In this document: in pieces, positions 1 through 46,730 of the stretch
Position numbering within the stretch: position 1 is the first letter of the stretch
Layout of the letters: each line of letters opens with the position of its first letter
Assembly: GCF_038024065.1 (NCBI RefSeq)
Contig: NZ_CP150667.1
Coordinates: 3,851,501-3,915,500 of the forward strand
DNA: 64,000 nt
Source of the DNA: Polaribacter sejongensis
GTDB lineage: Bacteria; Bacteroidota; Bacteroidia; Flavobacteriales; Flavobacteriaceae
Direction: 5' to 3'
Notes under the pieces: model-generated
Database searches by the model: none
The model's input: only the letters and a program-made list of their open reading frames with translations
Told to the model about the DNA's origin: nothing
Translations under genes and position numbers: made by a program

Positions 1-362
1 TTTTAACGGAAAAAGGTGCAAGAAGAGCATTGTTATTACCAGTTGGTGGTGCGTTTCACTCGCCAATGATGGAACCTGCAAGAGCAGAATTAGCGGCTGC
101 AATTGAAGCGACTGTATTTAGCAAACCTACTTGTGCTGTATACCAAAATGTAGTTGCCAAAGCGGTTACGAGTCCGGATGAAATTAAAGAAAACTTAATT
201 GCTCAGTTAACTGCACCAGTAAAATGGACGCAATGTGTACAAGCAATGATTGCTGATGGTGGAACGGAATTTATTGAGGTAGGACCTGGTAAAGTGTTAC
301 AAGGTTTAATGCGTAAGATTGATAGATCTGTTGCTGCTTCGGGAGCTGCATTAGCGGAATAG
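1..362 (+). CDS. fabD: Malonyl CoA-ACP transacylase FabD, C-terminal part (5' end outside window)
   Basis: This is the C-terminal ~119 residues of FabD, which loads malonyl groups onto acyl carrier protein for type II fatty acid synthesis in the cytoplasm. The reading frame is open from base 3 (the first in-window codons read LTEKGARRALLLPVGGAFHS), so the gene begins upstream. Family motifs seen are PVGGAFHSPMM, which carries the second catalytic-dyad histidine, and EFIEVGPGKVLQGLM near the end, the conserved FabD C-terminal strand. A strong terminator follows 29 bases after the stop. Degenerate copies of this 3' end recur at 7406-7477 and 8577-8648. Confidence 0.93.
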   Translation, partial: LTEKGARRALLLPVGGAFHSPMMEPARAELAAAIEATVFSKPTCAVYQNVVAKAVTSPDEIKENLIAQLTAPVKWTQCVQAMIADGGTEFIEVGPGKVLQGLMRKIDRSVAASGAALAE

Positions 363-390
363 ATTTTAACGAAATATTTAAATATTAAAA

Positions 391-420
391 AAACGAACTT
401 GTGAGAGTTCGTTTTTTTTT
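391..420 (+). terminator. Rho-independent terminator of fabD
   Basis: A 9-bp stem (AAACGAACT pairing with AGTTCGTTT) with a six-base loop is followed by a T run. Very similar hairpins follow the fabD-like fragments at 7482-7515 and 8653-8687, each about 30 bases before GTTAACG. Confidence 0.85.
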
Positions 421-440: not shown

Positions 441-570
441 GTTAACGTGTTGGTATATGAAAAGTAGTAGAATAATAATGCTTTTACTTTCAGTTTATAC
501 ACAAAATAGTAGAAAAGCACAAACTTTGTAGCCCACACTTAACTGCTATTTTTTATATAACGTGTTGTGG
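441..570. repeat. Imperfect palindromic element at the 3' side of cargo genes (copy 1)
   Basis: The element starts with GTTAACG and ends with GTTGTGG. Its left arm (GTTGGTATATGAAAAGTAG) is an imperfect reverse complement of its right arm (CTGCTATTTTTTATATAACG). It ends 8 bases before the stop codon of the minus-strand gene at 579-956. The heptamer CCACAAC, the complement of its right end, recurs at 2631 on the other side of the cargo. The same architecture is seen at 7536-7732, 8707-8840 and 10218-10353. A recombination function is inference. Confidence 0.6.
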
Positions 571-578
571 TTTGTATA

Positions 579-956
579 TTATTCTATTTCAGTAATTGCA
601 ACAGTTTTAGTAAAGTGTTTTTTTTCAATTATAATTACAATATGCTTATTTAAATATACAGCTAAATCATAATTTCTAACTTTATCATTATCATAATAGG
701 CTCCAGATTTTTTTATTATTGTATTCATACAATATATTTTTGTTGGCTTTAAATTATACAAAGTGTCTGTAATAGATAGTGAAGTAAATTCTGCTGAATT
801 ATCATTGTCTTTAAATACAAAAATATGTTCTTTTTCTGTATAGTCAAATCCTTTTTTTAAGTATTTGCCATCTAGCTTTATAAATAAAGTATCTTTTACT
901 TTTTGAGAGAAACAAATAAAAGGAAGAAATAATATGACTAAAAATATTTTTTTCAT
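579..956 (-). CDS. Small exported protein of unknown function
   Basis: This 125-residue protein has a clear N-terminal signal peptide (MKKIFLVILFLPFICFSQ, cleavage probable before or after the final Q), so it is probably periplasmic or surface located. No family is recognised; the mature part is a mixed hydrophilic sequence with alternating hydrophobic residues that could form a small beta-rich fold. Its ATG overlaps the stop of the upstream gene 956-2533 by one base (TAATG), which suggests translational coupling and a shared role with that metallopeptidase-like lipoprotein, perhaps as partner or inhibitor (inference). It is the last gene of the accessory segment between fabD and the M16 peptidase. 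Confidence 0.6.
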   Translation of the reverse strand: MKKIFLVILFLPFICFSQKVKDTLFIKLDGKYLKKGFDYTEKEHIFVFKDNDNSAEFTSLSITDTLYNLKPTKIYCMNTIIKKSGAYYDNDKVRNYDLAVYLNKHIVIIIEKKHFTKTVAITEIE

Positions 957-2533
957 TACTTACAAAAGTTTTTAGTTAAGCCCGATAGGTTTGTATTAAT
1001 TGTATTATTTATTTTAATTGTGTCTTTACCTTTATCTAGCCAAGCTTGTAATTTATGGTTTTTTAATCCTTGCCATGCAAGCGCCTCATAAATATTATCT
1101 AAAGTATTTAATGGATAATTTTCTTTGTAATATTTTACCTCATTAGGTATTAATTTTTGATGAGTATTTTTTAGTGCTAATATCATTTCGTTTAAATATA
1201 ATTTAGCCATAGTCTCGTGTTGAGGGTCTGGTTTAAAGTTAACATTTTTAAAATGGTTAAACGTTTGTTTAAAATCTAAATCACCGTTTATTGAATATTT
1301 TGTATTTAATTTTCTAAACATATCTGCATGTATATATTCATGTAGTATAGTTCTTATGCCAGCTAATGAAGACATATTTGATAATCTTCCAGTACTAATA
1401 TTAATATTTATTAATGAAGAACCAGGTAGATACGTAGTTTTTCCATTAAGTTCAATATTAGTATTTTTTCTAAAAATTTTATCTTTTGAAGATATATTTA
1501 TGTTAAATTCAGAGTTTCCATTAAAATTAGCTAATAAATCTTTAACAAAATCATTACTATCTTTGGTTAAACTATCGTTTAAACACTCTGCTTTACCTGT
1601 AAGGTCAGAGGAATCAATATGATCTTCCAAATCCTTTACACAATCACCATTACTATTAGGAAATAACCCTGGTCCACAATAACTAATTGCATCATTAATA
1701 AAAGCAATTTTTTCTTCTTTTTCTCCAGTATTGTTAGTGCCTGTTTTTTTATAGATACCAGCACCATTTGGCCCAAATCTATTCATTTCGGGTAAACTAC
1801 CTCTAGTTATACAAATTTCCTCATAATCATACCCAGTTATTGTTGTACCGTGGTATACTATAAAAATTCCGTCTTCATCACTAGATATATTATACCAATC
1901 TGTATATTCTGTAACAAGTCTAACAGTTTCACAATTTGAATCGCTTTTAGCAAATGTTGATGTTGAAGATTCTTTTTTTGTTTTAAAAGGTGAATAGTGT
2001 GTTACATTACCTTTATCGACTTTTTTAGTATAGACAAAGTTTTTTTCTTTATCTACTAAATAAATGATACCAGAATAATTTTTAGAATTAGAGAATGAAA
2101 CTTCTGAATTAATTAAATGACTATTTTGGGTGTCTACATTTTGATAAAATTTGGCAGCAAAAAAATTAAAATCTCCTTCATTATTTTGAATGGCTACTAT
2201 TTTATATTTAGTATAATACCCTCCTTTTCGTTTAAGTTTGTTTAACTCATTGGGGTTCAATAAAGAAGTATAATTGACAGGAAGTTCGTAGTAAAATAAT
2301 TCTAAATCTTCGGAGTAGGATTTTACAGGGCTGCTAAAATCTACAGTAAATTAATAAGGAATTAAGTTGCTAAAATCATTTTGATTAAAGGTTTTTTGTA
2401 GTTGTTCAGAAATAGTGTTTTCCTGAACTAGTTGGTTTTCTTCTTTTTCACAATTCCAGAGTAATAATGAAATTCCAATGAAAAGAATTCTAGTTTTTAG
2501 AAGGTTGATTAATTTGTTTTTGTTCGTTTTCAT
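956..2533 (-). pseudogene. Lipoprotein with HExxH metallopeptidase-like motif, interrupted by an in-frame stop
   Basis: Two open stretches lie in the same frame and are separated by one TAA at 2351-2353 (codon 61 of 525). The first 60 codons encode a Bacteroidota-type lipoprotein signal (hydrophobic core, then LLLWNCEKEEN). After the stop, 30 codons (FTVDFSSPVKSYSEDLELFY onward) run without a break into the 434-codon remainder. The C-terminal third has LHEYIHADMF, an HExxH zinc-binding motif, as in bacteroidete surface proteins of unknown substrate. The simplest reading is a recent nonsense mutation. A sequencing error or readthrough cannot be excluded, and the long downstream part may still be translated from an internal start (for example TTG at 2260). 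The frame otherwise shows no further damage. Confidence 0.7.
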
Positions 2534-2630
2534 ATATCGATATAAATTTAATGATTAATATTCGTTTTTTGTTATTTAACAAGCTGCAATTTTTGAATAT
2601 TCACTTCAGCTCATAGATGAGCCATATAAA

Positions 2631-2682
2631 CCACAACTCTAATAATATAAAATCATTCAATGTTTTATATCAGAAGTTAACG
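2631..2682. repeat. Right-boundary palindrome of accessory segment (copy 1)
   Basis: A 52-base imperfect palindrome begins CCACAACTC and ends AGAAGTTAACG. Inside it TATAAAA and TTTTATA form a hairpin. Close copies are at 8313-8366 and 10793-10846, always upstream of the first minus-strand cargo gene. The final GTTAACG is the direct repeat of the one at 441-447. Confidence 0.6.
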
Positions 2683-7251: not shown

Positions 7252-7405
7252 CTATTTTTTTAAACTAACATTTACAACTTGTTTAATATTCTCAATCTCC
7301 GTATAATCCTTCCCTTGCCAAATATTTTCTAACTCCAGTTGTTTGTCAATTTGGGCAACCATTTCAAAATTTTTAAGTCCGCTGTGTTTTGGTTAAATAC
7401 TAAGA
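7252..7405 (-). pseudogene. 3'-end fragment of a TIGR01212-type radical SAM gene (copy C)
   Basis: The translation reads GLKNFEMVAQIDKQLELENI and continues WQGKDYTEIENIKQVVNVSL before a stop, matching the last ~45 residues of the intact gene at 10933-11877 up to WQGK. After that the tail differs and is longer. Upstream an in-frame TAA occurs (NLSI-stop-PKHSG, against LLIAPKWNG in the intact protein) and homology stops at about 7405, where a fabD-like 3' end begins on the opposite strand. It is a remnant with no function of its own. Confidence 0.75.
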
Positions 7406-7477
7406 TTTAAAAATGTTGCAATCGAATTTATAGAAGTTGGATATGGGGAGTTATTGAAATGTTTAATGAGTCTTTAA
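7406..7477 (+). pseudogene. 3'-end fragment resembling fabD (copy C)
   Basis: In the plus frame it reads AIEFIEVGYGELLKCLMSL then stop, which aligns with TEFIEVGPGKVLQGLMRKI of FabD at the start of the window. It is followed at the expected distance by a hairpin like the fabD terminator. The match is short but the combination of frame, stop and terminator makes a decayed fabD end the best explanation. Confidence 0.6.
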
Positions 7478-7481
7478 AATG

Positions 7482-7515
7482 AAAAAACGAACAAGAAAGA
7501 GTTCGTTTTTATTTT
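7482..7515 (+). terminator. fabD-type terminator copy (C)
   Basis: An eight-bp stem (AAACGAAC with GTTCGTTT) and an 8-base loop are followed by T-rich sequence. It is nearly identical to 8653-8687 and similar to 391-420. Confidence 0.75.
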
Positions 7516-7535
7516 TGTGATTGATTTTCGGTTTC

Positions 7536-7732
7536 GTTAACGGATTGGTATAAGAAACGTAGGGCAGTAGATAAGCACTATCGTTTCGGGTTTAACACTT
7601 AGCTAAATATAAATATTTTGATTTTATATTTTCGGATTTAAATGCCAAATTTTATATTTAGCGGACTTTGTAAATAAACACAGAACTTTGGAATTAAGAC
7701 AAAAGCCCTATGCTTTTTATACATTGTTGGCA
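7536..7732. repeat. Imperfect palindromic element at the 3' side of cargo genes (copy 2)
   Basis: It starts with GTTAACG and ends with GTTGGCA. The left arm GTATAAGAAACGTAGGGC is complementary to the right arm AGCCCTATGCTTTTTATAC with few mismatches. The interior also contains self-complementary stretches (AAATATAAATATTT-like). At 197 bases it is the longest of the four copies. It lies 27 bases beyond the stop of the small gene 7760-7927. Confidence 0.6.
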
Positions 7733-7759
7733 TTTCGTTGTTTTTATTCCGATTTTTAA

Positions 7760-7927
7760 TTATTCAGTTGAGTTTTGTTTTTTGAATGGAATCCATTTTA
7801 AAATTAATCCTAAACCTACAGCACATAAAAATCCTGAAGCTGTCTTCATAAAACTATTATCAAGTAATAAATATGCTATAATTGCGAAAATCAAAACTGC
7901 AATTCCCTTAATTTGTGATTTATTCAT
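7760..7927 (-). CDS. Small membrane protein, 55 residues
   Basis: The ATG at 7927 opens a frame MNKSQIKGIAVLIFAIIAYL with two hydrophobic segments (about residues 8-22 and 30-46) ending in WIPFKKQNSTE. The size, two-helix layout and KxIPFK-type end resemble small inner-membrane proteins common in flavobacteria, and no function is known to me. It is the second gene of a two-gene cargo, downstream of 8103-8276. A motif AATTGGCGnAAT...ATCACTCA lies upstream of both genes. The opposite-strand open frame here is not credible. Confidence 0.65.
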   Translation of the reverse strand: MNKSQIKGIAVLIFAIIAYLLLDNSFMKTASGFLCAVGLGLILKWIPFKKQNSTE

Positions 7928-8102
7928 AATGTTATTTTTTCTAATTTATAATATTTTTCAATTCCGCAAACTTTCTAAATTCCGATTTTGAGTGATAATT
8001 CCGCCAATTTAATTTTCAGAGTTTGAGTAAATTCACACGTTTTGCAATTCCCACAATTCATAAATTTAATTTTGTTGACGAGCGAGAGAGTGTTCATAAT
8101 TT

Positions 8103-8276
8103 TTATGCTGTACTTTTCTTCTTTTTTAAGGTAAATAATAGTGAAATAACACAAATTATTACAATACCAATTGGATTTACTTTTGAGTTTTCAAATTTTA
8201 TAAACTCAAAAAAAATATTTAAACCAAAAAATAATAATCCTAAACTTTGTATAATTACAAATATCTTATTTTTCAT
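8103..8276 (-). CDS. Small membrane protein, 57 residues
   Basis: The frame from the ATG at 8276 reads MKNKIFVIIQSLGLLFFGLN, then a polar hinge and a second hydrophobic stretch (PIGIVIICVISLLFTL), ending in KKKKSTA. This predicts two transmembrane helices with a positively charged cytoplasmic tail. No family is recognised. It sits as the promoter-proximal gene of a small cargo pair between the palindromes at 7536-7732 and 8313-8366. Confidence 0.62.
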   Translation of the reverse strand: MKNKIFVIIQSLGLLFFGLNIFFEFIKFENSKVNPIGIVIICVISLLFTLKKKKSTA

Positions 8277-8312
8277 ACTTTTTTATTTTGTGTTGAGTGA
8301 TTTCGCCAATTA

Positions 8313-8366
8313 CTTGCAACTCTTATGATATTAAATCATTGCAATGTTTTATATCAGAAGCTAACG
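8313..8366. repeat. Right-boundary palindrome (copy 2)
   Basis: The 54-base imperfect palindrome has GATATTAAA facing TTTTATATC and ends AGAAGCTAACG (GCTAACG instead of GTTAACG). Immediately after, AGCTAAC-GAA-GTTAGCT plus T6 forms a small terminator-like hairpin. The next ~110 bases are almost identical to those following 10793-10846. Confidence 0.6.
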
Positions 8367-8452
8367 AAGTTAGCTTTTTTTAATTTTAGAATCAAACTAA
8401 ATTAACTCTTTTGTGGTTGTTTTTAAGCTGAAAATTAGAGTGTTTTTTATAC

Positions 8453-8576
8453 TTAATTTTTCAAATAAGATGTATAATTCTTCCCTTACCAAATATTTTC
8501 TGACTCCAGTTGTTTGTCAATTTGGGCAACCATTTCAAAGTTTTTAAATCCATTGTATTTTGGGCAAATAGTAAGA
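8453..8576 (-). pseudogene. 3'-end fragment of radical SAM gene (copy B), with premature stop
   Basis: It encodes GFKNFEMVAQIDKQLESENI followed by W-stop (CAA changed to TAA), then GKNYTSYLKN and stop. The terminal part and the following intergenic DNA match the intact gene's 3' end almost exactly. The upstream part instead carries the variants of copy C (VAQIDKQLE), so the copy is a mosaic of the two. Confidence 0.75.
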
Positions 8577-8648
8577 TTTAAAAATGTTACAATCGAATTT
8601 ATAGAAGTTGGATATGGGGAGTTATTGAAATGTTTAATGAGTCTTTAA
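8577..8648 (+). pseudogene. 3'-end fragment resembling fabD (copy B)
   Basis: It gives the same reading as copy C (IEFIEVGYGELLKCLMSL then stop). The block 8573-8713 differs from 7402-7542 at only two of 141 positions, so one was recently copied from the other. Confidence 0.6.
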
Positions 8649-8652
8649 AATG

Positions 8653-8687
8653 AAAAAACGAACAAGCAAGAGTTCGTTTTTATTTTT
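8653..8687 (+). terminator. fabD-type terminator copy (B)
   Basis: The same AAACGAAC/GTTCGTTT stem as copy C has one base changed in the loop and is followed by a T-rich tract. Confidence 0.75.
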
Positions 8688-8706
8688 GTGATTGATTTTC
8701 GGTTTC

Positions 8707-8840
8707 GTTAACGTTGTTGTGTTATGGAAAGTTGCGATTTTTATGAACGGCTATTTTCCGAAGGAAAATTGAAGTGAGTAAAAATGCAACAGCCTTAGGC
8801 TTAGCTAAAAATAAGCAATTTTTTATACACGGTGTTTATC
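8707..8840. repeat. Imperfect palindromic element at the 3' side of cargo genes (copy 3)
   Basis: It begins GTTAACG. The left arm TTGTGTTATGGAAAGTTGCG is complementary with mismatches to the right arm GCAATTTTTTATACACGG. It ends three bases before the stop codon of the thioredoxin-like gene 8844-10199. It shares long stretches with 10218-10353 (GTTATGGAAAGTTGCGATTT and TTTTTTATACACGGTGTT). Confidence 0.68.
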
Positions 8841-8843
8841 ACG

Positions 8844-10199
8844 TTATTTATCTTTTAATGCTTTTTCAATCTCTTTCTCAGCTGCAATTGAGGGTTCATT
8901 AATATTTGAATTTATTATTTTTCCATCTTTACCTATAAGTATATATCTTGGTATTGATTTAATATTATAATTTTTTCCAAATTCGGTATGCATACCTTTT
9001 CTTATAAATAGATTTTTCCCAAATTCATTATTTTCTTTTTCAATAAAAGACAACCATTTATCTTTTGATGAATCTACTGAAACAAATAAAACTTCTACAT
9101 CATTATTGTTTTTGAATTTTTCAGCAAATTCTTTTACTCTTGGTCTGTGATTTATACAAGGTCCACACCATGTAGCCCAAACATCAATAAAAAGGACCTT
9201 CCCTTTTAAGCTTTGTAAATTAAAGTTTCCTCCAAATTTATCTTGAGCATCAAATAAATATGCCATTTCTCCATTTTGAGAGGCATAAAAAGAAGAAGAA
9301 GGTTGTTCAATTATGTAATGATAAGTATTATTTTTTTCAGAACTTAAAGCTTTAGATAACACTTCTGTATTGAATAGTTTTTCATGTTTTTGCCAATATG
9401 ATGGACTCTCAATCAATGCTTTAATGTAGTTTGCTTTTAAATAATCGGCTAAATCTTTATTATTTGTCTTTTTTTCAATAAACCTTAAAAAATCAGTAAT
9501 ACTTTCTATCGATTTATTTTTTCTCAAATACTCAATTTCATATTTATAGAGATAAATATCAGGAAGCGATTTTAATGTTTCGTTTACTTCCGGAATATTT
9601 TTAATAAAATCAAAGTAACTATCATTTGGGTTTAACCCTTTAGATATTCTGCCTAAAAAAAACAAAAATGAATAAATTCTTGCATCATTTTGGAAATATA
9701 AAATATCTGCTATTTCAGAACTGAATTTTTCTTTGAATTTCTTTATTTTATTTTCTCTTTTAGTTCTAAATTTTTCAAATAAGATTAGAATAGAATCTGT
9801 ATTTTTAGTTTTAAATATAAATGAACTATTTTTAGATATAAATGGCACAGTACTTTTCCAGAGATAGTTGACCAAAGAATCGCTCTTGTTATTAGTAATT
9901 ATCGTAGAATCTGAAAGAATCGATATATTCAAGTCTTTATTTCGAGCTAATATAGTCAGATATTGGTTGTTATATCTTTTATCGTGTAGGTTGGCTACAG
10001 TAGGACTATTTATTTGAACAGTTCTTATTTCGTTCTCCTTATAAATTTGGGTAATTGGTTTTTTAGTGATTAATTCGGAAACATATATTGTGTCCAATTT
10101 AATCTTTGAATTTAAACTAATCTCAAAGCTATTATTTTCTTCTTTACAGGAATACAGTAAGTATAAAACACTTAATACTAATATGTACTTTGATTTCAT
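8844..10199 (-). CDS. TlpA/ResA-like thiol-disulfide oxidoreductase lipoprotein
   Basis: The 451-residue lipoprotein (signal MKSKYILVLSVLYLLYSC, lipidated Cys18) has a C-terminal thioredoxin domain from about residue 310. The active site is the CxxC in TWCGPC (Cys345 and Cys348), inside FIDVWATWCGPCINHRPRVK, the TlpA/AhpC-TSA signature. The ~300-residue N-terminal region is alpha-rich and not recognised, as is common for bacteroidete TlpA-like proteins. It would act in the periplasm as a reductant or thiol exchanger; the partner is unknown. The gene is packed tightly between two palindromic elements (18 bases from its start, 3 from its stop), like an integron cassette gene. Confidence 0.82.
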   Translation of the reverse strand: MKSKYILVLSVLYLLYSCKEENNSFEISLNSKIKLDTIYVSELITKKPITQIYKENEIRTVQINSPTVANLHDKRYNNQYLTILARNKDLNISILSDSTIITNNKSDSLVNYLWKSTVPFISKNSSFIFKTKNTDSILILFEKFRTKRENKIKKFKEKFSSEIADILYFQNDARIYSFLFFLGRISKGLNPNDSYFDFIKNIPEVNETLKSLPDIYLYKYEIEYLRKNKSIESITDFLRFIEKKTNNKDLADYLKANYIKALIESPSYWQKHEKLFNTEVLSKALSSEKNNTYHYIIEQPSSSFYASQNGEMAYLFDAQDKFGGNFNLQSLKGKVLFIDVWATWCGPCINHRPRVKEFAEKFKNNNDVEVLFVSVDSSKDKWLSFIEKENNEFGKNLFIRKGMHTEFGKNYNIKSIPRYILIGKDGKIINSNINEPSIAAEKEIEKALKDK

Positions 10200-10217
10200 T
10201 TAGAATTTTTTTTATGT

Positions 10218-10353
10218 GCTACAACGTTGTTGTGTTATGGAAAGTTGCGATTTTGTGAACGAGTATTTTCCGCAGGAAAATATAAGTTTGCAAAAATGCA
10301 ACGACTTTGGGTTAAGCTAAAAATAGCAATTTTTTATACACGGTGTTGTAGCA
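10218..10353. repeat. Imperfect palindromic element between two cargo genes (copy 4)
   Basis: The 136-base element is bounded by GCTACAAC and its exact complement GTTGTAGC. Inner arms TGTTATGGAAAGTTGCGATT and AATAGCAATTTTTTATACA pair imperfectly. GCTACAAC appears again at 10793, on the far side of the next cargo gene. Unlike the other copies it has no terminator or fabD remnant beside it. Confidence 0.7.
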
Positions 10354-10359
10354 AGTTTT

Positions 10360-10770
10360 TTATCCATTCGGACATTCAATTATTGTTATTTCTTCTTTCA
10401 TTTTAATGTTAATTTCTAAAATATTATTCCTATTGAATAATTCTTTTTTTACATTTCTTTTTTCAGTTTTAAATCCTAAAAAAGAAAATTGGATGATTAA
10501 TTCATCTTTTTTATTCAAAAGGTCAAATACATTTACTTTATAATCTCCGTTTTCATTCACTTTAATTTTCAAATTTGAGTTTTGAATATTCACATTTACG
10601 TATTTGAATGAGTCTCCGACATTATCTTTAATATTACCATAAATTATTAAAGAATCTTTTTCTTTTCTAAATTCAACAGATTTTGATCCAAATATAATTT
10701 CAGACTTAATTTTATTTTCTAAAGGGTAAAATAGCATAGCAGAAGCTATAATTAATAAAAAATATTTCAT
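10360..10770 (-). CDS. Exported protein with a carboxypeptidase-regulatory-like (CarboxypepD_reg) domain
   Basis: The 136-residue protein has an N-terminal hydrophobic segment (MKYFLLIIASAMLFYPLEN) that could be a signal peptide or anchor. The remainder resembles the beta-sandwich domain found at the start of TonB-dependent receptors and peptidases: IYGNIKDNVGDSFKYVNVNI, then NENGDYKVNV, then a FLGFKTEKRNV strand. Stand-alone copies are common in Bacteroidota and of unknown role. It lies alone between palindromes 10218-10353 and 10793-10846, its stop 6 bases from one and its start 22 bases from the other, so it looks like a single-gene cassette. Confidence 0.62.
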   Translation of the reverse strand: MKYFLLIIASAMLFYPLENKIKSEIIFGSKSVEFRKEKDSLIIYGNIKDNVGDSFKYVNVNIQNSNLKIKVNENGDYKVNVFDLLNKKDELIIQFSFLGFKTEKRNVKKELFNRNNILEINIKMKEEITIIECPNG

Positions 10771-10792
10771 ATTTGTGTTCAGTTTTTAATTT

Positions 10793-10846
10793 GCTACAAC
10801 TCTAATAATATTAAATCGTTTCAATGTTTTATATCAGAAGTTAACG
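10793..10846. repeat. Right-boundary palindrome (copy 3)
   Basis: The 54-base imperfect palindrome runs from GCTACAACTC to AGAAGTTAACG, with ATATTAAA facing TTTTATAT. It precedes the native intergenic sequence downstream of the radical SAM gene. Confidence 0.62.
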
Positions 10847-10932
10847 AAATTAGCTTTTTTTAATTTTAGAATCAAACTAAATTAACTCTTTTGTGGTTGT
10901 TTTTAAGTTGAAAATTAGAGTGTTTTTTATAC

Positions 10933-11877
10933 TTAATTTTTCAAATAAGATGTATAATTCTTCCCTTGCCAAATATTTTCTAATTCAAGTTGTTTATCAA
11001 TTTTAGCAACCATTTCAAAGTTTTTAAGTCCGTTCCATTTTGGAGCAATTAGCAAATCTATAGGTGCTTGACTAATAAAGCGCTCTATAACAATATCTGG
11101 TCTTAATAAAGTAACAAATTTGGTTATAAAGGCAATATAGCTTTCTTGTGTAAACAGATTAAAATCTTCGGGGTTTCGTTTGTATTGAGACGCCATGATA
11201 GATTGCTTTACAATCTGTAAATGGTGCAGTTTTAAAGTGTCTATAGGTAGCTTCGAAATTTCAATGGCATGGTTTAATAAATTCTCTTTGGTTTCTCCTG
11301 GTAAACCGATAATTAAATGTGCGCCTAAATGAAAACCCCTGTTTTTACATTTATTAAAAGTAGCAATACTATCATCATAAGAATGACATCTGTTTACTTT
11401 TTCTAAAGTTTTGTTCGAAGTGCTTTCCACTCCGAATTCTAGAGAAATAAAATATGTTTTTGATAAAAAGGATAAGTAATCGATCACTTCATCAGAAATA
11501 CAATCGGGTCTTGTTCCAATAACCAAACCAATAACATTAGGAACGCTTAACGCTTCCTCGTACATTTTCTTTAACGATTCAAAATCTGAGTAGGTATTTG
11601 TATAAGCTTGAAAATAGGCTAAATATTGTTGCGTTTTATATTTGGTAGAAAACCGAGAAATTCCCTCTTCTAATTGTTGTTTTACACTTTTGGTAGGTTC
11701 GCAATAATCTGGGTTAAAAGTATCGTTGTTGCAATAGGTGCAACCACCGTATCCTTTAGAACCATCTCTATTAGGACAAGAGAAACCAATGTCTAAAGAT
11801 ATTTTTTGAACCCTTTCTCCGAAGGTTAATTTGATAAACGAAGCGTAATCTAAATAACGCTTTCCTGAAATTTTCAT
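10933..11877 (-). CDS. TIGR01212 family radical SAM protein (YhcC-like)
   Basis: This 314-residue radical SAM enzyme has the family's unusual cluster motif with cysteines at 34, 46 and 49 (CX11CX2C: CPNRDGSKGYGGCTYC) instead of CX3CX2C. Other family blocks seen are YFQAYTNTY, GTRPDCI, LEFGVES and GAHLIIGLPGE. The substrate is unknown in the family; homologues are in the same superfamily as Elp3-like and oxygen-independent coproporphyrinogen oxidases. The protein ends KNYTSYLKN, shorter than the tail preserved in the fragment at 7252-7405. Its 3' end is the apparent anchoring point of the cassette array. Confidence 0.88.
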   Translation of the reverse strand: MKISGKRYLDYASFIKLTFGERVQKISLDIGFSCPNRDGSKGYGGCTYCNNDTFNPDYCEPTKSVKQQLEEGISRFSTKYKTQQYLAYFQAYTNTYSDFESLKKMYEEALSVPNVIGLVIGTRPDCISDEVIDYLSFLSKTYFISLEFGVESTSNKTLEKVNRCHSYDDSIATFNKCKNRGFHLGAHLIIGLPGETKENLLNHAIEISKLPIDTLKLHHLQIVKQSIMASQYKRNPEDFNLFTQESYIAFITKFVTLLRPDIVIERFISQAPIDLLIAPKWNGLKNFEMVAKIDKQLELENIWQGKNYTSYLKN

Positions 11878-14391: not shown

Positions 14392-14466
14392 ATAAAAAAT
14401 TTTGCTCATCAAAAATACGAACTTACTTTCATTTTCTTTGTAGTTATCCGTAAATAATAATTCTGT

Positions 14467-46539: not shown

Positions 46540-46655
46540 AGCTATTTCCAGCTTTCCGTTATATCTTTTTTCTTCTGTTCTCGATACAAATTTTTCATTC
46601 TTCAAAATTCACTCGAACTGACAGAAAAAAGGATGCCACTTTAATCTGGGCTAAA
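46540..46655. repeat. Composite flavobacterial intergenic repeat
   Basis: The outer part (AGCTATTTCCAGCTTTCCGT, then GGATGCCACTTTAATCTGGG and CTAAAC) belongs to a class of repeats common between flavobacterial genes. Nested inside is a second palindromic repeat bounded by CTGTTCTCGATAC and CACTCGAACTGACAG. There is no ORF. The remainder of the gap up to 46730 shows nothing recognisable. Confidence 0.5.
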
Positions 46656-46730
46656 CTTGTTTGTAGGCTTATAGCTTTAGGTTAATTTTATTCTGAACCT
46701 ATGTTTTCTATGTTCCTATGTGTTCAATTT

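Follow-up and report, generated by a model that had tools for sequence, protein, structure and literature searches.

Probable integron-like gene cassettes at a duplicated dock between fabD and a radical SAM gene of Polaribacter sejongensis, and the candidate recombinase of a large cassette array

The region downstream of fabD in Polaribacter sejongensis (NCBI assembly GCF_038024065.1; one contig of 4.50 Mb, NZ_CP150667.1, here genome G000) was analysed in a window of 64,000 nucleotides (positions 3,851,501–3,915,500; coordinates of up to five digits refer to this window unless a locus, L, is named, and longer ones to the contig). A first-pass annotation, made from the sequence alone, had described consecutive units that begin with a fabD 3′ end, enclose minus-strand cargo between palindromes and close with the 3′ end of a radical SAM gene (rSAM), and had proposed that such units move as wholes. 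The observation is real, but the gene ends were left behind by an old duplication, and the mobile part is an integron-type cassette. We consider it probable that these segments represent cassettes that a large integron-like system, acting in trans, has placed in attC-like docks separating fabD from the gene that converges on it. Locally, cassettes would have entered the chromosome at a dock rather than within an array; more widely, the sequences point to an integron-like system whose recombinase has relatives across the family and fails the test for the integron integrase IntI.

Docks, duplication and cassettes between fabD and the radical SAM gene

Relatives carry fabD and the TIGR01212 radical SAM gene side by side in convergent orientation, and a dock of ∼50 bp (CGTTAAC-N∼40-GTTAACG) lies between the two genes. 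Docks bear two inverted cores in the fashion of attC sites. In the window, the intact 3′ end of fabD (ACP S-malonyltransferase; 3–362, plus strand; TIGR00128, 116 bits for the piece), to which the fabD ends of all 20 other genus genomes searched are 76–99% identical, is followed by its terminator hairpin (388–420, plus strand; repeat family D4) and by the left core of dock 1, CGTTAAC (440–446). G039 and G112 have the same core in their empty docks, and that of G065 reads TGTTAAC. Cassette E1 (447–2637, minus strand), with three minus-strand open reading frames (ORFs; 579–956, 956–2260 and 2351–2533) and an end match run of 10, is closed by the right part of dock 1, which ends in GTTAACG (2638–2682; match to dock model R1 at 3854132–3854187). 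As had been described, this segment starts at the intact fabD end; it stops before an M16 peptidase gene.

Repeat, protein and nucleotide alignments confirmed the parts of the two following units, their order and their positions. An rSAM remnant (7301–7405, minus strand; identified, like its counterpart, by repeat and protein alignment) lies ahead of the first, which comprises a fabD remnant including the terminator, with a CGTTAAC core at 7535–7541 (7406–7541, plus strand), cargo (7542–8320, minus strand; ORFs 7760–7927 and 8103–8276) and the right part of dock 2 (8321–8366; R1 match 3859815–3859871). The next rSAM remnant (8453–8576, minus strand) closes it. A fabD remnant including the terminator, with the core at 8706–8712 (8577–8712, plus strand), opens the second unit, which holds two cassettes with one attC-like site each: a thioredoxin-like cassette (8713–10225, minus strand; gene 8844–10199, attC-like site 8709–8836) and a CarbopepD_reg_2-like cassette (10226–10800, minus strand; gene 10360–10770, attC-like site 10216–10349). 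The right part of dock 3 (10801–10846; R1 match 3862295–3862351) precedes the intact radical SAM gene (10933–11877, minus strand; TIGR01212, MnmL/YtqA, 306 bits, cut-off 180). The right parts of all three docks were in the R1 training set. GTTAACG follows all three fabD ends; of the boundary palindromes, which had been said to end in (G)TTAACG, one does so (10840–10846) and the other ends in GCTAACG (8360–8366).

The truncated gene ends are genuine remnants. The blocks 7406–7542 and 8577–8713, 98.5% identical (2 of 137 positions differ), align with intact fabD 3′ ends plus terminator, and the rSAM remnants, of 42 and 38 residues, are 79% and 76% identical to residues 273–314 and 273–310 of the intact protein. 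Two pairs of direct repeats run through the locus, 7301–7542/8472–8713 (242 nt, 95% identical) and 8308–8563/10788–11043 (256 nt, 91% identical). When 166 genus genomes were searched with the join between the rSAM and fabD remnants, three matched across it, namely G000 itself, G109 and G112, which is beyond chance. When aligned, all three show the same join (AAGATTTRWAAATG...CAATCGAATTTAT), the fabD-derived tail of G112 being longer there (query 267–418), and the join is best read as a single old event. In G112 the join is followed by an empty dock and then by rSAM. The same genome also carries, next to the M16 gene, an additional fabD 3′ end that has decayed, with an M16 5′ piece farther on (L147 7942–10591), so that its locus has undergone more than one rearrangement.

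Inside this inherited frame the cargo varies. In G109 the thioredoxin cassette is absent, and the CarbopepD cassette directly follows the fabD remnant; its attC-like site is identical to that of the window over 128 bases and its protein is 99% identical. The thioredoxin cassette of G000 occupies exactly the interval from CGTTAAC to the CarbopepD attC-like site, and the comparison of the two genomes places its presence or absence precisely at AAC|G, with the neighbours kept. On these alignments, the varying unit is a cassette that starts at AAC|G and has an attC-like site and, mostly, complementary ends specific to it; the fabD and rSAM ends are not part of it. Among nine dock cassettes tested, seven had such ends, with match runs of 8–10. 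The first-pass view that cargo comes and goes as units therefore holds, although not for units that carry the two gene ends, which are a decayed duplication common to G000, G109 and G112 with the cargo boundaries inside it. The unit 1 cargo has an end match run of just 4 and consists perhaps of two decayed cassettes; its left part is 81% identical to that of G029, and the protein of ORF 8103–8276 shares 74.5% identity with a stretch encoded in locus L158, ∼620 bp past the recombinase gene.

A survey of 13 genomes found the fabD dock filled in six, five of them clear and with differing cargo (G000, G029, G034, G037 and G052) and one with decayed ends (G109). In two the dock was empty, with nothing else between the genes (G039, right core GTTAAG; G065, left core TGTTAAC), four had no dock (none was found at fabD in G050, G046, G122 and G134 by blastn or in the parts read), and in G112 fabD lay outside the stretch examined. 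G029, G034, G037 and G052 each have one cassette at the dock, different in each, and in the last three it is followed by the M16 peptidase gene; that of G037 encodes a ParD/ParE toxin-antitoxin pair (L088 7880–8423).

Model R1, whose training set included 7 of the 11, found at least 11 docks in the P. sejongensis genome. A further filled dock (cores CGTTTAAC/GTTAAACG) lies at 2.674 Mb, and an empty dock resembling it at 2.6655 Mb; the empty (L054 5499–5555) and the filled dock (14401–14457) are ∼9 kb apart on opposite strands. Elsewhere, a minus-strand gene of 635 aa is placed between two dock-like palindromes, as if itself a cassette (L053 6030–8126). An Rfam search gave no match at the fabD/rSAM locus, its sole match in the window being a Flavo-1 small RNA at 46541–46656 (RF01705, 62.8 bits).

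A one-orientation array and its candidate recombinase

Relatives of the window cassettes' attC-like sites are concentrated in one part of the same genome. A profile search with the ∼130-bp palindrome of the window cassettes yielded 45 relatives, all in one direction, between 4,172,989 and 4,256,482; a second profile search added more, its minus-strand matches being the palindrome matching itself. With covariance model R2, at least 104 attC-like sites were found at E≤0.01, at least 78 of them in the array and 26 outside it, including the two called in the window (3860206 and 3861719). The whole-genome R1 and R2 searches each scored 150 candidates, so the 104 sites and the 11 docks are lower bounds. 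The 84-kb array, with partly defence-like cargo, and the adjoining gene for an XerA-like recombinase lie at 4172989–4258306. As in canonical integrons, it is a one-orientation array of cassettes separated by attC-like sites: all 78 called array sites are on one strand, and 69 of the 73 ORFs of at least 100 aa on the other.

A second canonical feature, a conserved single-strand attC-like structure with complementary R″/R′ cores, was found in the consensus and the cassette ends. In 66 array cassettes, the bases adjacent to the core at one end of a cassette were complementary to those at its other end at 93% of 7 positions (shuffled control: mean 43%, maximum 52%), as expected from a circular cassette with one folded site. 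The consensus stem has 23 pairs in two helices, with a covariation of 0.221 (shuffled 0.072, slid at most 0.075) and 28 double-change cells (8.9 shuffled, at most 13 slid). Folded singly, the two called window sites were more stable than shuffled sequences (z −2.9 and −2.5). Cassettes recur, 51 of the 69 long array proteins being non-redundant. Eight of ten large array proteins gave Pfam matches above the cut-off (the second largest was left out of the scan), namely to a restriction-type helicase, an Mrr-like nuclease, PIN, HEPN/RES, Fic, DUF4062, LRR and MORN. Across the genus, attC-like sites were present in 151 of 162 genomes, 20 candidates being scored in each (166 genomes had been searched for the join). 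No match to one attC-like site was obtained by blastn in phage and plasmid collections, although divergent sites of such length can escape this method.

No match to PF00589 (tyrosine recombinases), the one recombinase family searched for, was found in the window, and six were found elsewhere in the genome, in line with the earlier suggestion that a recombinase would act in trans. The candidate is the tyrosine recombinase gene adjoining the array at 4.257 Mb, with its 3′ end toward the array. The best match of its product is XerA, and the IntI-specific insert is absent: in comparison with IntI4 (2A3V), residues 113–281 align with 12–180 and 306–375 with 248–317, leaving 24 residues in between against 67. 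TIGR02249 matched in two stretches with 205 bits, under its cut-off of 265. The protein has an N-terminal extension of ∼100 residues, which was barely tested by the fold comparison, made with a predicted model (mean predicted local distance difference test score, pLDDT, 71; predicted template modelling score, pTM, 0.44), and the motifs that we take to be catalytic in the family are invariant across eight homologues. Some relatives bear the NCBI title 'site-specific tyrosine recombinase/integron integrase', that of model NF040815. A search of genome contigs with the recombinase retrieved 12 loci, three distant and nine close (71–82% identity), the latter from seven named Polaribacter and two Flavobacterium. 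At E≤1e-60, relatives were found in 162 of 299 Flavobacteriaceae genomes, a set that grades into relatives of 36–41% identity.

An attI-like motif, ATATAA-N3to5-GTT, occurs within 140 bases past the recombinase stop codon in 34 of 39 loci, including that of P. sejongensis, and within 36 bases in 31 of them. The sample consisted of this locus and the 38 closest others, L161, which stops at the gene end, being counted as a miss; shuffled sequences gave a mean of 0.5 of 39 (maximum 3) and other stretches 3 of 218. Sites of the attC-like type lie downstream of the gene in eight of the nine named loci, the contig ending there in the ninth, and, by position, 3′ of it also in G109, G052, G065, G050 and G039.

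The orientation of sites was compared with the direction of replication. Among plus-strand ORFs, GC skew at third codon positions switches sign at 0.73–0.85 Mb and 2.74–2.77 Mb (it is weak at 0.48–0.75 Mb), and the 16S rRNA genes agree with these boundaries. One 16S rRNA match, at 1557483–1558759, is in pieces and is possibly a pseudogene or an interrupted copy. Among the 26 non-array sites, the 15 at 0.93–2.68 Mb (ten clusters) are all on the minus strand, and the two of the window are on the plus strand like the array. All 12 decided clusters agreed with fork direction, as did 10 of the 11 docks, three of which are copies from one tandem duplication. Nine sites were left out of the test, one at 0.48 Mb where skew is weak and eight at the replichore boundaries (five at 0.73–0.74 Mb, three at 2.775 Mb); they agree if the boundaries are at ∼0.75 and ∼2.77 Mb, and the 0.73–0.74 Mb cluster could fall on either side. 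Such fork-linked orientation would fit insertion through folded single strands, and selection could account for it as well.

These data suggest the following course. An ancestral fabD–dock–rSAM block was, as comparison with relatives shows, duplicated, giving the join and extra docks. Cassettes ending in an attC-like site would have entered the left dock core at AAC|G, as the structure of the locus indicates, and been gained or lost singly. The putative catalyst is the XerA-like tyrosine recombinase beside the array of at least 78 sites at 4.17–4.26 Mb, which may use folded single strands as its substrate, in the manner of integron integrases. The second copy of the join in G000 may have arisen later, through unequal exchange between the repeats. 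A broader proposal, to which we give somewhat less than an even chance, is that Flavobacteriaceae run a second kind of integron, derived from an XerA-like recombinase without the IntI insert, whose dedicated attC-like docks are scattered along the chromosome just behind housekeeping genes and oriented with the fork, so that cassettes pass from an array that is mostly silent to places where they are expressed.

Points against cassette insertion and other explanations

Several observations weigh against insertion of cassettes by this recombinase. The additional domain near patch III by which IntI is recognized is absent, and that insert is described, in the excerpts of the integron literature listed below, as required for integron recombination. 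The canonical core consensus is RYYYAAC/GTTRRRY. In the array, GTTRRRY fits 17 of 72 sites and RRRY 4 of 19 distinct 4-mers, the AAC/GTT part being kept. Each of the two called window sites, in its lowest-energy fold, lacks the outer consensus stem. Model R2 called neither the attC-like part of E1 nor that of unit 1, and the former folds no better than shuffled sequences. Two window cargoes, unit 1 and the thioredoxin cassette, have no in-register end match. The docks themselves form weak folds (−3.4 to −4.4 kcal/mol and z −0.9 to −2.2 for four of the five; 0 kcal/mol and z +1.4 for dock 3), and the empty dock at 2665499 is opposite in orientation. A tblastn search of all loci found no copy of the seven window cargo proteins in the genome's own main array, so no donor cassette was found there. 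Finally, the recombinase was found at E≤1e-90 in 71 of the 162 genus genomes, far fewer than have attC-like sites, and G034 has a filled dock without a recombinase at that threshold.

The best-placed alternative is that the cassette system is real and is moved by another recombinase, be it host Xer or, in other strains, a canonical IntI. Six Phage_integrase matches exist in the genome, many genus genomes possess attC-like sites without the array recombinase at E≤1e-90, and IntI1 recombined a Polaribacter phage attC in an assay (PMC9892861, as excerpted). Against this stand the position of the recombinase gene at the head of the array, the recurrence of the attI-like motif past its homologues and the attC-like sites 3′ of them, and we consider another recombinase unlikely.

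That the whole segment is the mobile unit, with the ends of fabD and rSAM as arms for homologous recombination or as the scar of a circular form, is very unlikely. The order of parts and the repetition of the same join would suit a circle that had integrated at the rSAM end by homologous recombination, and relative to G034, in which the C92 gene and rSAM are ∼150 bp apart with no join, the segment looks inserted. Yet the join is decayed and common to three species while the inner cargo differs, the cargo boundaries are at AAC|G, and docks are empty both with (G112) and without the duplication (G039 and G065). The circle survives in another role: integrated once by homology, a fabD remnant–dock–rSAM remnant circle could explain the duplication, and plain tandem duplication would do so equally. 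Slightly less credible still is homologous recombination alone, in which the fabD/rSAM repeats and palindromes would swap cargo between strains. Repeats of 242–256 bp suffice for it, and the second copy in G000 is probably such a product; it predicts neither single-base cargo boundaries nor cassette-specific complementary ends, and leaves an array beside a recombinase with a conserved attI-like motif unaccounted for. The abundance of the palindromes would suit repeats resembling miniature inverted-repeat transposable elements (MITEs), or terminators, with cargo moved by transposition, a reading we virtually dismiss, since the called array sites run in one direction with most long ORFs between them on one strand, ends match within and not between cassettes, and the empty sites found show no target duplication past the core.

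Relation to known cassette systems

Integrons are defined and found by means of the IntI-specific domain according to excerpts of the literature consulted (PMC9892861, PMC9024848, PMC9668308, PMC12444791, PMC12901181, PMC8138268, PMC2426708 and PMC11023631). If the present cassette system works without this domain, domain-based surveys would miss a large reservoir, as the recombinase relatives in 162 of 299 family genomes may indicate, arrays having been counted within the genus. The empty and filled docks would in addition provide a natural, testable case of cassettes leaving an array and settling at fixed chromosomal places. Searches of open-licence literature yielded, among the papers listed, neither a description of a cassette system of this kind nor one of Flavobacteriaceae chromosomal integrons. 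PMC9892861 reports attC sites in Polaribacter phage P12002L, attC2 being the one recombined by IntI1, and the IntegronFinder 2.0 paper gives Salinibacter ruber as a Bacteroidetes example.

One close likeness is to sedentary chromosomal integrons (SCIs) such as the Vibrio cholerae superintegron, with which the Polaribacter system shares a recombinase gene, an adjacent attI-like motif, a long one-orientation array, complementary cassette ends, repeated cassettes, restriction-type cargo in the array and a toxin-antitoxin cassette, here at a dock. It differs from the superintegron in that its recombinase lacks the IntI insert and has an N-terminal extension, and most of its R′ cores do not fit GTTRRRY. 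Moreover, intI usually points away from the array, whereas the 3′ end of the Polaribacter gene faces it. The Polaribacter cassette genes run against the fork, their template strand being the lagging-strand template, an orientation opposite to that stated for SCIs in the excerpted PMC11023631. As for the recombinase itself, the aligned parts of archaeal XerA (5HXY and 4A8E) begin 14 and 37 residues in, leaving no room for an extension as long as that of Polaribacter. We know of no action of archaeal XerA recombinases on cassette arrays.

In the window itself, unit 2 resembles a cluster of attC sites lacking integron-integrases (CALIN), defined by at least two attC sites and no nearby integrase: the R2 calls give it two attC-like sites, and by the PF00589 search these and their cargo lie at a distance from every tyrosine recombinase match. 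Unlike a CALIN, the window cassettes occupy a dock whose empty form exists in relatives, and they were probably loaded from outside rather than left by a decayed integron. A further parallel is the insertion of integron cassettes into genomes at attG sites (Loot et al. 2024, as described in papers citing it), which are neither attC nor attI and are broadly distributed. In both cases cassettes settle in the chromosome outside an integron; by that description, the Polaribacter docks differ in being palindromic, with a core at both ends, in the number found (at least 11) and in the fabD dock being kept across species.

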